Position numbers and translations under genes: made by a program. Below, in pieces: positions 3,111-11,957 of a stretch of DNA of 14,551 nt (positions are counted from its first letter, which is position 1; each line of letters begins with the position of its first letter). The notes beneath the pieces were generated by a model, which saw only the letters and a list, made by a program, of their open reading frames with translations, made no database searches and had not been told where the DNA came from. The DNA lies in NCBI GenBank assembly GCA_947177715.1, contig CAMWVM010000011.1, forward strand, positions 1-14,551, in the 5' to 3' direction. This DNA comes from an uncultured Ruminococcus sp. (GTDB lineage Bacteria; Bacillota; Clostridia; Oscillospirales; Ruminococcaceae).

Positions 3111-3145
3111 AAAAGGACAGCATAAAATTGCTGTCCTTTTTTATT
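3111..3145. terminator. Bidirectional intrinsic terminator between convergent genes
   Basis: A 12-bp perfect stem (3111-3122 with 3129-3140) with a 6-base loop. It is flanked by T-rich sequence on the right and A-rich sequence on the left, so it can end transcription of the hemolysin III gene (+) and of the converging kinase-like gene (-), whose stop codon overlaps it. Confidence 0.88.
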
Positions 3146-4202
3146 GTTCTTCATTTTTAAATCCTTTGGCAAGAATACAATATGCAGGTTCATATTCTCC
3201 GACAATAGGAGGAAGCCGTTTAAGCCTGAAGCTTTGCGGTTCTTCAGATATTTCACTTGAAAATGAAATTTGAACGATAAGTCCGTCTTGGCTTTTTATA
3301 AGGTTGAGAGTTCCGTTGAAATGCTCAGTGAATTTGTTGACTATTGCAAGTCCCAGACCTTCCCCTGTTTTGAATTTGGGTAGAGTGCGGAAAGGTTTAA
3401 GAGCCGTTTGCATAATTTTAACATCGGCAGCTTTACCGTTATCTGATACTTCAATATAAATCCGTTCATTTTTTTTATACGCTTTTAAAGTAAGTTTTTT
3501 TCTTTCCTCACTGCAATACATATAACCGTTAATTAATAGGTTTATCACTGTTAATGACAGACGATCATAGTTCATATTCATATAAATTGATGATTCAATT
3601 TCAGTCTTAAACTCACAGTTGCCAGCTTCAAAGCTGTCACGGCAAAGGAGTGCAGTTTCCTCAAGGCATTGTGAAACATTTAATAGCTCGGTTGAAAACT
3701 CGCCGCTGTAATATTTTGTGATTTCATTGGAGTTGACAGTTGAAGATAGCATTTTAAGCAGATTATTGGAAACTATAGTATAAAGATTATTAATATCTGC
3801 GCTGTATTCTTTGTTTTTTAAGCCTTCAAGCTGTGCAATAATAGGCGAGATGGCAAGGCGAATGTTGCCCAGTGAATTGCGCTTATACTTTAAAATCGAC
3901 GATCTGTCAGATAAGGTTTCAATTTCTTCAGCGTCATAAAATGTCAGCATATAGCCGTCAAGTTTTTCTTCATCAAAAAGAGGTTTGATTTTTACTGAGT
4001 TGCCGTTTATATAGTGGAGAATTTTACTTGACTTGACAGGCAGGGAAGGAGTTTTTCCAAACTCAGGTTTAAAATCAGTTATGGCAATAAAATCCGGAAG
4101 TGTGATATGGCTTTTCCAGATTACAGCAAGATTACTGTCTGTGACGATAATCATTTCATCGGATTTTTCATACAATTTTTTCACTGATTCAAGCATTTTC
4201 AT
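3141..4202 (-). CDS. Histidine-kinase-like ATPase lacking a recognisable phospho-acceptor His
   Basis: This is a 353-residue, apparently soluble protein. Residues about 10-95 resemble a PAS-like sensor domain (DEMIIVTDSNLAVIW). Residues about 104-160 form a helical region where a DHp domain should be, but the segment RNSLGNIRLAISPI at 108-121 has N or R where the H box carries its His. The C-terminal HATPase_c domain is well kept: N box N221/N225, G1 box DNGKA at 254-258 (second glycine replaced by Ala) and G2 box GEGLGLAIV at 280-288. It is probably an ATP-binding regulator, pseudokinase or unusual phosphotransferase; no response regulator is adjacent. ATG 4202 is chosen because GGAGGA lies 9 bases upstream; a TTG at 4223 extends the frame but includes that ribosome binding site. 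It has its own strong promoter. Confidence 0.85.
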   Translation of the reverse strand: MKMLESVKKLYEKSDEMIIVTDSNLAVIWKSHITLPDFIAITDFKPEFGKTPSLPVKSSKILHYINGNSVKIKPLFDEEKLDGYMLTFYDAEEIETLSDRSSILKYKRNSLGNIRLAISPIIAQLEGLKNKEYSADINNLYTIVSNNLLKMLSSTVNSNEITKYYSGEFSTELLNVSQCLEETALLCRDSFEAGNCEFKTEIESSIYMNMNYDRLSLTVINLLINGYMYCSEERKKLTLKAYKKNERIYIEVSDNGKAADVKIMQTALKPFRTLPKFKTGEGLGLAIVNKFTEHFNGTLNLIKSQDGLIVQISFSSEISEEPQSFRLKRLPPIVGEYEPAYCILAKGFKNEEQ

Positions 4203-4235
4203 TGAACAAATCCTCCATAACAACTCGTTGTTTAT

Positions 4236-6970: not shown

Positions 6971-7017
6971 TAATCAAAGAAAATATGCTTATATTTTGTG
7001 CGAAAGGATTTTTTGTT

Positions 7018-8295
7018 ATGATTAGATTTAAAAACGGCAGAGTTATGACAATGGAAAAGGATACAGAAATAAAAAATATCGAGGTTTGGATTAAAGATGA
7101 CAAAATTTATTTTGTTGGTACTCCTGATAGTGAGCAATTAAAAAAAATAAGTTTTGAAAGAGAAATTGACCTTGATGGTAACCTTCTTATGCCGTCTTTT
7201 AAGAATGCTCATACTCATTCGGCAATGACTTTTTTGCGTTCCTTTGCAGATGATATGCCTTTGCAGGACTGGCTTTTTAAGCAGGTTTTTCCTATGGAAG
7301 CAAAGCTGAAAGGTGAAGATATATATTGGCTTTCAAAGCTGGCAATTTTAGAGTACCTGACAAGCGGTGTTACCGCTAATTTTGATATGTATTTTGAGCC
7401 TGATGATTATGTCAAGGCACATATTGAAAGCGGTTTCCGTACAGTGCTGTGCGGCTCCGTAAGCGGTGATGTGTCCAATATAAAACGTCTGGAGGACTAT
7501 TATAACAGATTTAACGGAATCAATCCTCTAATATCTTATAGACTTGGGTTCCATGCGGAATATACTGCGGATTTTGAACTAATGGAAGCTGTGGGCGAGT
7601 TGGCAAAGAAATATAAAGCTCCAGTTTCGGTGCATAACTCTGAAACTGAAAAAGAGGTTGCAGAATGTATTGAGAAGTACGGAAAAACTCCTACCGAGCT
7701 TTTTGATTCTCTTGGAATTTATAACTATGGCGGAGCAGGTTTCCATTGCGTGCACTTCAGTGATAATGATATGGATATTTTTAAAAAACGTGGCGTTTAT
7801 GCAGTAACTTGTCCCGGTTCAAATGCAAAGCTTGCCAGCGGAATTGCTCCGTTGTGCAAAATGGCAGAAAAGGATGTAATGCTTGCCGTAGGAACCGACG
7901 GCCCTGCAAGCAACAACTGTCTTGACATGTTTAGAGAAATGTTCTTAATGACAGCCTTGCAGAAAATTTCAAATAAAGACGCCGCTGCATTTCCTGCTGA
8001 TAAGGTGCTTTTCGCTGCAACATCAGGCTCTGCAAGAGCAATGGGACTTGACAACTGTGTTTCAATCTCAGAGGGCATGCAGGCAGATCTGATAGTAATA
8101 GACCTTAATCAGCCTAATATGCAGCCTTTAAATAATATTGGCAAAAACATCGTTTACAGCGGTTCAAAGCAGAATGTAAAGCTAACTATGTGTGCTGGCA
8201 AGGTGCTGTATGAGGACGGTAAATTCAGCGTTGGCGAAGAGGCTGCCCGAATTTATGCAAGAGCAAACGAGATTATTACAGAGTATTCAAGATAA
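7018..8295 (+). CDS. Amidohydrolase, 5-methylthioadenosine/S-adenosylhomocysteine deaminase family
   Basis: This 425-residue metal-dependent deaminase belongs to the MtaD/TRZ-ATZ branch of the amidohydrolase superfamily, whose members convert S-adenosylhomocysteine or methylthioadenosine to the inosine form. All expected active-site residues are present: metal ligands H65 and H67 in NAHTHSAM, H206 in VHNSETEKEV, with E209 as the proton-shuttling glutamate, H243 in FHCVHFSDND, and D294 in VGTDGPASNN. The short N-terminal and C-terminal beta segments (IRFKNGRVMTM and QADLIVIDL) are the usual composite domain. ATG 7018 is preferred to the in-frame ATG 6985 because AAAGGA lies 9 bases before it and the shorter protein matches the usual MxxFKNG start. 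It is monocistronic. Exact substrate is open; related members deaminate guanine, cytosine or other bases. Confidence 0.88.
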   Translation: MIRFKNGRVMTMEKDTEIKNIEVWIKDDKIYFVGTPDSEQLKKISFEREIDLDGNLLMPSFKNAHTHSAMTFLRSFADDMPLQDWLFKQVFPMEAKLKGEDIYWLSKLAILEYLTSGVTANFDMYFEPDDYVKAHIESGFRTVLCGSVSGDVSNIKRLEDYYNRFNGINPLISYRLGFHAEYTADFELMEAVGELAKKYKAPVSVHNSETEKEVAECIEKYGKTPTELFDSLGIYNYGGAGFHCVHFSDNDMDIFKKRGVYAVTCPGSNAKLASGIAPLCKMAEKDVMLAVGTDGPASNNCLDMFREMFLMTALQKISNKDAAAFPADKVLFAATSGSARAMGLDNCVSISEGMQADLIVIDLNQPNMQPLNNIGKNIVYSGSKQNVKLTMCAGKVLYEDGKFSVGEEAARIYARANEIITEYSR

Positions 8296-8533: not shown

Positions 8534-10174
8534 CTAATCGGCGTATGTCATAACAGAAAATACACTCTTTTTCTGTAATTCGGTAAGCGGCTTAAGCATA
8601 TCTCTATCAAGCATTTCTTCGATCAGATAAGGAATAAAATGACCAGCACTTAAAGTGTTTGTGCTGTAATGCTGAACTATGGGACGAATATGCGGTGGAT
8701 ATTTGTCCTTTTCATATTCATATTGGCGTTTGTCAAAATCATTTACATATGACTTGACTTCATTGCTTACAGAAACATTTTCATGAATTATGTTTTTCAG
8801 GATATTGATTCCCGAAGCTGGATTGCCTATAGTATTTTTACAGGACATTACCTGAACCTTGTCATCATGAATATATCCTTTATCGCAAAGACGTTTGTAT
8901 TCCTCCAGCGTTATTGCCTGCGGATTGCAGCCGCCTTTTATGAAAGCATATAGAGAATCCCAGTCGCTGTCCAGGTTATCACGCCACGCAAGGTCACTTC
9001 GTCCGCTGAAACGGCAATCGACCTGAATGCTTGAATTTTTGTCAGTTGCTCTGGTCATATATCCGCAAGCCCAGTACGGATTTTCATCAGGCTGTTTATA
9101 ATCATTGGATATACTTGCGTGAGCAATAAAGCAGCCTCCGTCGGGACGTTTTACTTTGAGCTTTTCATAGATGCTCCAATAATTGTCATCGTCATATTTT
9201 GAATAAGAAAAGTCTGTACACAGCATTACAAGGGTGTATTTCATAAAGTTCTTGTCATTGCCGTCGCATGAAAATCCCCAGTTGTCCTGTGAGCGGTCGA
9301 AATCATTAAAAACCTTCTGATAAAAATTATCGCACATGAATTTTGCCGCCTGCTTGAGCATAACGCTTTCAGTATTGTCAAAAAGCCTGCTGTCTGTAAT
9401 AAACATATTAGTGAGATACTTTGGATTTTTACTGTTATCCACCTGATCGATATATCCGTATTCACAGAGGATTTTCAGCTCGTCAGCAACGTAAGTAACA
9501 GGAACATTAAGCTTTCTTGCAATTTCTTTGGCATTCAGCGGCTTGTAATAGCAGGCGAAGGCTATATTTTGCTTAAGCTGGGTATCAAACATATCATTTG
9601 TGTCGCCTTTTATACCAGGGTAACCATTGTGCCCCATAGCGCTGAATTTAATGGGATTTACAGCAAGATCGTCATTATATTTTTTCATAGCAAGTTCCTC
9701 CTTTAAAGTTGACCGTGCGTCGGACAAATGCCATTTTACAGTGCCAGTGGATATTCCCAGCTTATCTGCAATTTCCTTTGCGGATTTTTTCTCATAGTAA
9801 TGCATATATACAACAGTCCGCTGTCTTTGCGACAGATAGCCGATTTCCCTGCGAAGCTCGCTAAGCGTTTCTTCGTTTTCCGGCTTGTCAAATCCGTCAT
9901 CATAAAAAGGCAGAGTAATTTCATTAATATTTTCTAAATTTCTTCCAACGGTAAGAGTATGTATGTATTTTGCATAAACATTACTGGCAATACGGTATAC
10001 ATATCCGTCAATGTTTGCGATGTTTTCTGTGTTCAAAAAGGATTGATATACCTCGCATACAATGTTGGAAGCAAGTTCCTCCGCCTGAGATATATTTCGC
10101 ATTTTTTTAAGAGCAAAGCCAAAAATTTTATTTTGATAATGTAAAATCAATTTGTCAGCACGTTGTTTTTCCAT
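8534..10174 (-). CDS. ECF-like sigma factor with a large C-terminal extension
   Basis: This is a 546-residue protein. Residues about 5-72 match sigma region 2 (HYQNKIFGFALKKMRNISQAEELASN and DGYVYRIASNVYAKY). Residues about 105-160 match sigma region 4, with SQRQRTVVYMHYYEKKSAKE leading into the helix-turn-helix KLGISTGTVKWHLSDARSTL. Together these direct RNA polymerase to promoters. Ordinary ECF factors end near residue 170-200. Here about 385 further residues follow: a second, winged-helix-like segment (about 207-260; LNAKEIARKLNVPVTYVADE) and a C-terminal part I do not recognise, with eight Cys between residues 303 and 445 (twelve in the whole protein). No transmembrane segment and no adjacent anti-sigma gene are seen, so the extension may itself control activity. 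ATG 10174 is chosen because GGAGG lies 6 bases before it; the frame stays open to 10213. Confidence 0.85.
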   Translation of the reverse strand: MEKQRADKLILHYQNKIFGFALKKMRNISQAEELASNIVCEVYQSFLNTENIANIDGYVYRIASNVYAKYIHTLTVGRNLENINEITLPFYDDGFDKPENEETLSELRREIGYLSQRQRTVVYMHYYEKKSAKEIADKLGISTGTVKWHLSDARSTLKEELAMKKYNDDLAVNPIKFSAMGHNGYPGIKGDTNDMFDTQLKQNIAFACYYKPLNAKEIARKLNVPVTYVADELKILCEYGYIDQVDNSKNPKYLTNMFITDSRLFDNTESVMLKQAAKFMCDNFYQKVFNDFDRSQDNWGFSCDGNDKNFMKYTLVMLCTDFSYSKYDDDNYWSIYEKLKVKRPDGGCFIAHASISNDYKQPDENPYWACGYMTRATDKNSSIQVDCRFSGRSDLAWRDNLDSDWDSLYAFIKGGCNPQAITLEEYKRLCDKGYIHDDKVQVMSCKNTIGNPASGINILKNIIHENVSVSNEVKSYVNDFDKRQYEYEKDKYPPHIRPIVQHYSTNTLSAGHFIPYLIEEMLDRDMLKPLTELQKKSVFSVMTYAD

Positions 10175-10208
10175 CTTGCGCCTCCGGAAGCATTTGATTG
10201 AAACCTGT

Positions 10209-10225
10209 TTCACTTATATAGTGAA
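10209..10225. promoter_or_regulatory. 17-base palindrome in the sigma factor leader
   Basis: TTCACT-TATAT-AGTGAA, a perfect 6-bp inverted repeat with a 5-base AT centre, 34 bases upstream of the sigma factor start. On the minus strand the centre could serve as a TATATA-type -10 element, so a protein bound here would compete with polymerase. No convincing -35 was found. Confidence 0.5.
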
Positions 10226-10253
10226 GAATTTTAAAGAAGGGTTGGGCGGATTT

Positions 10254-10394: not shown

Positions 10395-10835
10395 TTAATT
10401 TTCTAATTCCGTAATTAAATCAATTCGTTTCTGGTGTCTTTCTTCATTGGAGTATGGTGTGTCAACAAATGCGTCAACCAAATCTATAGCAGTACCCTCT
10501 CCCACAACTCTTGCACCGAAACAAAGTACGTTGGCGTTGTTGTGTTCACGGGTCAATCTTGCGGAAAAATAATCGGAGCAGCATGCCGCTCTTATGCCTT
10601 TGACCTTGTTTGCGGCAATGGACATTCCAACACCTGTACCGCAGATGAGAATACCTAAATCGCATTCGCCGCTGACAACCTTTTCACATACAGCTTTTGC
10701 TGCATTAGGATAATCGCATTTTTCTCCAATGGCACAGCCCATATCTATACATTCAATGCCTTTTTCTTTTAAATGATCAATTACCGCAAGCTTAAGCTCT
10801 GGTGCAGCATGATCGTTTCCTATTGCAATTTTCAT
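10395..10835 (-). CDS. rpiB: Ribose-5-phosphate isomerase B
   Basis: This 146-residue RpiB/LacAB-family enzyme interconverts ribose 5-phosphate and ribulose 5-phosphate in the non-oxidative pentose phosphate pathway, or a close sugar-phosphate relative. Visible features are the N-terminal MKIAIGNDHAA with D8 and H9, the catalytic C65 followed by the phosphate-binding loop GTGVG at 66-70, and H98 in TREHNNANVLCFG. Length and motifs fit the family fully, and Cys at 65 indicates the RpiB rather than the LacA type. The start ATG overlaps the tsaB stop as ATGA, and AAGGAGG lies 7 bases before it inside tsaB, so the two are translationally coupled. It is the last gene of the leftward run, followed by the large terminator. 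A separate allose-6-phosphate role cannot be excluded. Confidence 0.95.
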   Translation of the reverse strand: MKIAIGNDHAAPELKLAVIDHLKEKGIECIDMGCAIGEKCDYPNAAKAVCEKVVSGECDLGILICGTGVGMSIAANKVKGIRAACCSDYFSARLTREHNNANVLCFGARVVGEGTAIDLVDAFVDTPYSNEERHQKRIDLITELEN

Positions 10836-11530
10836 TTTGTTTCCTCCTTGTATGCTTTGTCTTTTTCGGCTTTTGTTACCTGAAGATATGCAACTTCAAG
10901 ATTTTCAGCGCTTGTAAAATACTCAGGATTATGTTCAAGTGCAATGCAAAGAGAGGATGCACGCTGTAATCTCTGCGTTTTTCCTGCACAGACTACGTTT
11001 TTCTCTTTTGCAAAGTATTTTTCCTTTATTTGAGTGCAGTAATCTCCTGTAAGCATTATCTTTTCCGAAAGGTCAAGATTTGAGAATACCTCAATTTCAG
11101 GACAAACTCGGTCCTCGCCTATGCGTGAAACGCTTTCACTGTCTGATAAAAACTCACCAACATAAACTATATTAGGACGTGCTCTCATCACTGAAATTAT
11201 TTTTCCGCAAAATGCAGAGCAATTACAAGCCATAGCCTCAAGAGTAGAAACTCCTGCGCATTTTATATGCGGTGCACCAAGGCAAATGCCTTTTACGGCG
11301 GCAATTCCGATTCTCAGACCTGTATATGATCCAGGACCTTTAGCAACGGCAATGGCGTCAATATTTTCAAAGGACAGACCGCTGTCATTCATAACTTCCT
11401 GCACCATTGGCATGATAATTTGTGAATGGGTGAGATTTGTATATAAAACCTTTTCACAAATAAGTTTTTCGTCATCTGTTATGGCAACGGATGCAATTTT
11501 TCCTGATGTATCAAGTCCCAATATCCGCAA
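10832..11530 (-). CDS. tsaB: tRNA t6A biosynthesis protein TsaB
   Basis: TsaB is the non-catalytic partner of TsaD in the complex that adds threonylcarbamoyl to A37 of ANN-decoding tRNAs. It has the ASKHA fold: the N-terminal MRILGLDTSG strand, THSQIIMPM at 34-42 and the hallmark GPGSYTGLRIG at 65-75. The reading frame is open to an ATG at 11545. I prefer the TTG at 11530 because GGAG lies 9 bases before it, no ribosome binding site precedes 11545, and MRILGLDTS is the usual family start. It then has 232 residues and overlaps tsaE by 20 bases. It overlaps rpiB by 4 bases at the other end. The C-terminal half is less conserved, as usual. TsaD and RimI, common neighbours in this cluster, are not in the window. 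Confidence 0.93.
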   Translation of the reverse strand: MRILGLDTSGKIASVAITDDEKLICEKVLYTNLTHSQIIMPMVQEVMNDSGLSFENIDAIAVAKGPGSYTGLRIGIAAVKGICLGAPHIKCAGVSTLEAMACNCSAFCGKIISVMRARPNIVYVGEFLSDSESVSRIGEDRVCPEIEVFSNLDLSEKIMLTGDYCTQIKEKYFAKEKNVVCAGKTQRLQRASSLCIALEHNPEYFTSAENLEVAYLQVTKAEKDKAYKEETK

Positions 11531-11957
11531 AACGGTCATCTCCATCTATAGTGATTTTTCTTGTGTTGTCATCAATTCTATCTATATTAATTCTTATTGT
11601 ATTTTCAGGCAATTCGGACGCTATGTTTTCAGACCATTCGATTGCGAGTATTCCGCCGTCCTCAATATAGTCATAAAAGCCTGTGGTTTCCAAATCGTCA
11701 GGAGAAGTGATTCGGTACATATCAAAATGATAAAGCCTCAAGTTTTTTCCTGTATACTCATTCACCAGTGAAAATGTGGGTGAAATAACCTCGTCCCCAA
11801 GTCCCAAACCTATAGAAATTCCTCTGGTTATAGTAGTTTTTCCTGCACCAAGTCCTCCGCTGTATGCAATTACATCTCCGCTTTTTAACCGATTTCCGAT
11901 TTTTTCTCCCAGTTTTATTGTGTCTTCGGGGGATTGGGTAAAGGTGATATAAATCAA
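11511..11957 (-). CDS. tsaE: tRNA t6A biosynthesis ATPase TsaE
   Basis: TsaE is the small P-loop ATPase that drives turnover of the TsaB-TsaD complex in t6A synthesis. The 148-residue chain has the Walker A motif GGLGAGKTT at 34-42, SPTFSLVNEY at 59-68, the HFDMYR block at 77-82 and the conserved IEWSEN at 106-111. The gene starts with TTG at 11957, with AAAAGGA 9 bases upstream, and no in-frame ATG offers a better choice. It follows the DUF3810 gene by 14 bases and overlaps tsaB, so it belongs to one transcript with both. Length is normal for the family and nothing is truncated. Confidence 0.95.
   Translation of the reverse strand: MIYITFTQSPEDTIKLGEKIGNRLKSGDVIAYSGGLGAGKTTITRGISIGLGLGDEVISPTFSLVNEYTGKNLRLYHFDMYRITSPDDLETTGFYDYIEDGGILAIEWSENIASELPENTIRINIDRIDDNTRKITIDGDDRFADIGT

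Follow-up and report, generated by a model that had tools for sequence, protein, structure and literature searches.

A lone ECF sigma factor of an uncultured Ruminococcus with a fused winged helix and a candidate operator at its own promoter

Sigma factors with fused regulators are already known, and ECF sigma factors characteristically have an autoregulated promoter with an AAC-type -35 element. According to the available text of PMC3426412, members of the ECF41 group combine a fused C-terminal regulator with very few detectable promoters and essentially one target unit, and they usually drive the adjoining COE gene from TGTCACA/CGTC promoters. A review available in part (PMC8999054) describes ECF238/CorE as a sigma factor with a Cys-rich C-terminal extension and no anti-sigma factor (section 3.5.1) and lists ECF262, whose model SFB89493.1 is from Ruminococcus albus, as an extension group of unstudied mechanism (Table 2); the portion of its text that was available mentions no winged helix, palindrome or autoregulation. 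The gene analyzed in this study may, with about even chances, encode an ECF sigma factor that acts alone, regulates itself and probably contains its own repressor: it would fire from its own promoter, place a winged helix at an operator over the start site and be gated by its C-terminal domain.

The window considered here is the whole stretch of 14,551 nucleotides, in which the gene, read from the minus strand, occupies 8534..10174, with its ATG at 10172-10174 and its stop codon at 8534-8536, and encodes a 546-residue protein (P0001) composed of sigma, winged-helix and extension parts; a GGAGG ribosome-binding site is read directly from the sequence at 10181..10185 on the same strand. A sequence-only reading had placed an open reading frame at 8534..10174 and left its strand unnamed; the frame is real and reads on the minus strand. 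The flanking frame at 6985-8295 encodes an amidohydrolase and the one at 10395-10835 ribose-5-phosphate isomerase B, and the kinase and response-regulator genes of the window lie more than 4 kb from the sigma gene, in agreement with the earlier statement that neither an anti-sigma gene nor a partner kinase is adjacent. The accompanying statement that there is no transmembrane segment was also borne out, since none is indicated along the 546 residues and the highest Kyte-Doolittle mean over 19-residue windows is 0.66. Elsewhere in the window, tsaE, tsaB and rpiB lie on the same strand upstream of the sigma gene (10395-11957; NCBIfam equivalogs above cut-off), and the product of positions 3141-4223 resembles a kinase and has a HATPase_c domain (PF02518), HisKA not being in the Pfam listing.

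The same reading had divided the protein into sigma regions 2 and 4 (residues 1-160), a second winged-helix-like DNA-binding segment and an extension without an assignable fold, a division that profile and structure comparisons uphold in each part. The ECF sigma part spans residues 1-165 by profile matches and by alignment of ECF structures over that range; the general ECF model TIGR02937 matches residues 6-161 at 66.2 bits (cut-off 42.9) and region 4 matches PF04545 strongly (E 1.9e-15), with the Pfam region 2 model (PF04542) by itself weak and below cut-off (E 0.004; 17.4 vs 24 bits). Region 2 (residues 1-74; 9953..10174, minus strand), the proposed reader of the -10 element, is supported by TIGR02937, by 71 residues aligned at 1.7 A to SigR region 2 (1h3l) and by its tracking of the -10 element. 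Region 4 (residues 106-161; 9692..9859, minus strand), the proposed reader of the -35 element, is supported by PF04545/PF08281, by 62 residues aligned at 1.4 A to sigma-D region 4 (3vfz) and again by tracking. The winged helix-turn-helix (residues 199-262; 9389..9580, minus strand), which would read the operator, draws TrmB, HTH_27 and MarR matches in Pfam over residues 210-248, every one below cut-off, and is also backed by the AlphaFold2 model and by a structural match to the ArsR-family protein CzrA. The full-length AlphaFold2 model has a mean pLDDT of 85, with low confidence confined to the sigma linker (77-108) and to residues 158-171.

The C-terminal domain (residues 262-546; 8537..9391, minus strand), the putative sensor, comprises 285 residues that AlphaFold2 modelled alone at a pLDDT of 91.5; it falls into no recognised family or fold, with no significant match in Pfam, NCBIfam or the PDB by HMM search and structure comparison. 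SnoaL does not appear among the 25 of 28 Pfam matches listed for the protein, nor among the Pfam families listed for the 262-546 domain in 52 members, and the fold lists are compatible with SnoaL; MerR and TipAS have no match among the Pfam matches listed for the protein and for the domain. An RPDGG motif at residues 343-347 (9134..9148, minus strand) stands out by conservation, with R343, D345, G346 and G347 invariant (120/120) and P344 kept in 117 of the best 120 of 512 homologues, while residues 263-340 are the most variable region (10-19% identity vs 23-42% for residues 341-447, in the subfamily 2 rows). Residues 421-443 (window 8846-8914), a short helix-turn-strand, weakly resemble Paratox, a phage protein, at sub-significant E values (0.06 in Pfam and 0.21 with the PDB profile).

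The promoter of the gene consists of a -35 element CCAACC (10240..10245, minus strand) and, 16 nt past it, a -10 element CACTATAT (10216..10223, minus strand), both identified as matches to a family motif. Of 91 regions upstream of family genes, 57 contain this motif, CCAACC-N16/17-CACTATAT, in exact form, and 74 score at least 12 of 14 promoter positions vs 0 of 273 shuffled regions; the window is present two times among the 91 (as L001 and L078), and some further regions are duplicated. By its sequence, the motif before family genes and before this gene has the AAC-type -35 typical of ECF autoregulated promoters. Across 196 family genes with the window excluded, NNAACC followed by at least five of the eight -10 positions was found in 164 of 195 usable upstream regions, by a scoring that favours AACC and leaves 31 of the 195 without a promoter; the -35 element of these 164 begins with CC in 118, TT in 28, CT in 13 and other letters in 5.

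Exact copies of the promoter are concentrated at the family genes themselves. The motif occurs once in the window's own genome assembly (1.74 Mb, 80% complete), at the sigma gene, and loci L004-L077 (974 kb) hold 52 exact sites, made up of 48 self sites, two at the sigma copies of locus L053 and two extra. In a set of 17 genomes, 11 of 12 exact sites directly precede a family gene by coordinates, the exact promoter being missing from two family-bearing genomes of the set (G178, G045); over 197 genomes of the taxonomic family, 10 of 15 exact sites lie before family genes (one at a contig break) and the remaining five fall within open frames of 138 to 394 codons, with 14 sites for the reversed-pattern control. 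Sites with two mismatches are in no excess over seven genomes (218 vs 368 in the control) and are fewer in each genome. Therefore, since the other exact and two-mismatch sites do not exceed controls, the gene itself is the only well-supported target, as read from pattern scans that may miss degenerate promoter sites.

These counts bear on the alternative, which we regard as quite unlikely, that the protein is a conventional ECF sigma factor whose degenerate target promoters are scattered and whose extension serves as its regulator. Against it stand both the control counts and the location of the inspected one-mismatch sites, which fall within open frames of 132-561 codons; in its favor, a Treponema locus (L053:1917-13400) with two copies of the sigma gene carries the exact family promoter at four places, two of them beyond the one at each sigma copy. 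The extra promoters precede a 336-codon open reading frame, with a GNAT acetyltransferase gene next, and a DUF2807 gene, so that extra targets exist in this one lineage, where exact promoters precede further transcription units. The second L053 sigma gene overlaps the first gene of an ABC-transporter pair, and none of the L053 promoters has a palindrome.

Just downstream of the -10 element of the window lies an inverted repeat, TGAAAC-AG-GTTTCA (10199..10212, minus strand), which forms the palindrome TGAAACAGGTTTCA and is the proposed operator. When the leader was shuffled 40 times with dinucleotides preserved, no shuffle equalled it, and TGAAACNNGTTTCA has a single exact copy in the 1.74 Mb assembly. 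Many members have a perfect palindrome directly past the -10 element, with letters that change from lineage to lineage and a symmetry that persists, among others TGAAAGCTTTCA, TGAATGCATTCA, GAACGTTC, CAGAAGCTTCTG, CGGTACCG, ACAACATGTTGT and ATCACCGGTGAT; in the window's subfamily, the repeat of many close relatives is reduced to an imperfect GAA...TTC. In total, 98 of the 164 motif-bearing leaders have a palindrome with arms of at least 4 centred 7-14 nt past the -10 element (88 loop-free, 44 distinct sequences), and 66 have none by this definition. Leader L012 exceeds the others with a perfect 22-bp palindrome, GAGGTTCAAGGCCTTGAACCTC, past the -10 element and about 55 nt upstream of the gene.

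Zero-loop arms of at least 5 occur in 44.5% of 119 non-redundant leaders vs 2.4% of dinucleotide shuffles and 15.4% of 26-nt windows upstream of the -35 element. When loops of up to 4 are allowed, the upstream window (41%) and the leaders (50%) are nearly equal; therefore, only the zero-loop, position-fixed feature is distinctive, and the absence of a loop favors a DNA symmetry and disfavors an RNA hairpin. Palindromes are most often centred 8.5 or 9.5 nt past the -10 element (53 of 81 counted, arms of at least 4), a position at which the palindrome should overlap the transcription start site. A composite of AACC, CTATAT and TGAAAGCTTTCA has 32 matches in 28 of 394 genomes and none with the reversed control; a family gene lies just downstream at 29 of the 30 fetched loci and a family remnant at the 30th, and the two composite sites outside the fetched loci agree with sigma-gene coordinates. 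In L304 (G265:C20:4991-5033), all that comes after an intact promoter and palindrome is a remnant that matches a relative over its residues 436-494; this is a decayed copy.

The correspondence between protein regions and DNA elements was measured with distance correlations over 81 members, divided into subsets of 48 members with CCAACC only and 33 others; because members share ancestry, the permutation counts are not probabilities and tracking gives support rather than proof. The palindrome follows the winged-helix part (residues 172-262) given sigma (r 0.296, 0/500 permutations), as opposed to -0.119 for sigma given the winged helix, and with the three other regions taken into account the correlation with the winged helix is 0.187 in all 81 members, 0.211 in the 48 and 0.260 in the 33. 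The recognition-helix stretch alone gives a weaker value (0.118), and sigma 2 reaches 0.229 with the palindrome in the 33 non-CCAACC members. The -10 element follows sigma 2 (0.311 in all 81, 0.753 in the 48, 0.225 in the 33), with lower values for residues 263-447 (0.139 and 0.185). The -35 element follows sigma 2 and sigma 4 in the full set (0.256 and 0.253) and sigma 4 in the non-CCAACC set (0.390); its correlation with the winged helix given sigma 4 is 0.116 (0/500) and is weak when every region is included (0.047).

These correlations also enter the question of whether the palindrome is the site of another regulator, with the winged helix contacting, for example, RNA polymerase or upstream DNA. 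Differences in the palindrome do track residues 263-447 too (0.142 in all members, 0.073 in the CCAACC-only set), and a palindrome overlapping the expected start site would hardly be reachable by the extension of the same bound holoenzyme. However, the palindrome tracks the winged helix in each of the three sets, and the paralogues of a single genome (G297), which has four family members with four different promoter/leader combinations, are preceded by different palindromes, making a separate regulator improbable in our judgment.

The sequence-only reading had further pointed to eight Cys between residues 303 and 445 and suggested that they sense metal or redox state. The count is exact (303, 319, 348, 370, 387, 416, 430 and 445), and the closest relatives lend the suggestion some support: among the best 120 of 512 homologues, C208 and C387 are kept in 120/120, C370 in 117, C281 in 116 and C303 in 109 with His instead in 5, with positions 237, 348, 416 and 445 variable even there. 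Conservation is similar in the window's subfamily (C208 and C387 45/45, C303 43/45, C370 42/45), but the set dissolves in sister subfamilies that retain the architecture and the promoter: subfamily 2 has C208 and C303 in 0/16, C387 in 4/16 and C370 in 14/16, nine distant members keep only C370 (8/9), and far paralogues have C370 in 2/12, where the alignment is unsure. Thus, C370 is the one Cys of the 303-445 stretch that persists in all three nearer subfamilies, and the replacements are mostly A, V, I, S and T, as with buried residues. A CorE-like Cys-based sensor is consequently very improbable; a Cys site of 303/370/387 limited to the window's subfamily may exist.

Homologues number 512 at E <= 1e-3, the best 120 of which share 46-79% identity with the query across 87-100% of its length, and sequence-record names assign members to Oscillospiraceae, Lachnospiraceae, Ruminococcus, Treponema and Paenibacillus. 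Genome surveys with A1 at E <= 1e-30, a threshold at which many paralogues match over about residues 1-330 only, found relatives in 27 of 197 genomes of the taxonomic family, 93 of 394 of the order and 29 of 391 of the class; several paralogues per genome are common, each of about 500-650 codons. The surveyed loci showed no recurrent anti-sigma gene beside the relatives, and no conserved neighbour gene was found around the family loci. The first downstream open reading frame is co-stranded in 30 of 58 loci, and 22 of 62 sigma genes have a next gene that runs in the same direction and lies no more than 350 nt away. Additionally, reading-frame stops inside the family copies G156:C40, G341:C7 and L047 suggest that the gene is dispensable.

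Returning to the self-regulating sigma factor, the proposed circuit would begin with the sigma part acting at the CCAACC/CACTATAT promoter to transcribe its own gene, a positive feedback that a winged-helix dimer of the same protein, bound to the palindrome, would block or stall. Repression rather than activation is proposed because of the position of the palindrome, and the C-terminal domain is expected to sense something soluble because neither a membrane segment nor a conserved partner was seen. A cytosolic ligand on this domain (262-546) would then relieve the block or release the sigma part. As output, the protein at raised levels could itself act, for instance by capturing a toxic compound, or it could drive a small number of genes that lie downstream or have weak promoter matches, such as the transporter genes after the sigma gene in L050, L059, L053 and L006. 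The earlier suggestion of a one-protein signalling switch is thereby retained in part: the lone regulator with a built-in extension stands, the promoter and the palindrome lend the switch independent support, and the metal/redox sensing by Cys is unsupported.

One form of output would be that of a TipA-like self-amplifying binding protein, in which a ligand turns on the protein's own promoter and the accumulated C-terminal domain neutralises the compound. This reading is compatible with the self-regulating circuit because it concerns the output, and we consider it rather unlikely. TipA proteins are minimal autoregulated multidrug-resistance systems in the available text of PMC7762955, and a comparable arrangement fits the exact motif found solely at the gene in the window's genome, the lack of excess near matches, a sigma gene that is often alone or convergent with its neighbour, the variability of residues 263-340 and the ABC-transporter genes that directly follow in those four loci. 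However, structure comparison found no resemblance of the C-terminal domain to a drug-binding fold, and the transporter neighbours are a small minority in which L050 and L059 look related.

More broadly, the family may tentatively, and with some doubt, be viewed as a widespread undescribed class of sigma factors containing their own repressor, in which separate domains read the -10, the -35 and the operator, forming one-gene circuits insulated from their paralogues, with a sensor whose fold has yet to appear among solved structures. If true, activator, repressor and sensor would be joined in one protein as a self-contained switch, present in many gut Clostridia and some Treponema, and the paralogue-specific promoter/operator code would be readable from sequence and reusable as insulated genetic parts. 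A vague finding is also turned into testable sites at known coordinates, namely a 6+8 bp promoter and a putative 14-bp operator. Within the limited literature searched, neither a fused second DNA-binding domain with a matching site on its own sigma promoter nor a description of this family's winged helix, palindrome or circuit was found.

Among the described systems, ECF262 resembles this family as an ECF sigma group from the Ruminococcus group with no anti-sigma factor and a regulatory extension (PMC8999054, as available). The genome of R. albus 8 encodes a single intact, full-length protein of the sigma/winged-helix family, alongside a 424-codon sigma open reading frame and the fragment of a relative at a contig edge; the intact member suggests, no more, that ECF262 may be this family, in which case the family is already catalogued. 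ECF238/CorE, in the part of the review available, shares a C-terminal extension with cysteines and the lack of an anti-sigma factor, whereas the present family has no family-wide Cys set and a 385-residue extension that comprises a winged helix plus a large folded domain. Assignment to the CorE-like group (ECF238/former ECF44) was rejected, as the Cys set is lost outside the window's subfamily and the CXC in the sigma2-sigma4 linker is absent, C40 being the sole Cys before residue 208. With ECF41, as its source was available, the likeness is the fused C-terminal regulator and essentially one target unit; the differences are the CCAACC/CACTATAT promoter, the palindrome past the -10 element and no conserved neighbour found. 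With the ArsR-type winged helices such as CzrA (1r1u, 4ggg, 6cdb), the likeness is the winged-helix fold of residues about 184-262 and the following helix. TipA/SkgA of the MerR family, as far as described in the available text of PMC7762955, differ in that they are not sigma factors, rely on another sigma factor and have no homology detected here, and membership was rejected because a sigma part and a winged helix replace MerR and TipAS; the two could nevertheless work alike. TipA forms, and the sigma factor would form, a single-gene autoregulated circuit with DNA-binding and C-terminal effector domains, and the autoinhibition of TipA that is relieved by ligand is the logic proposed for the sigma factor of this study.
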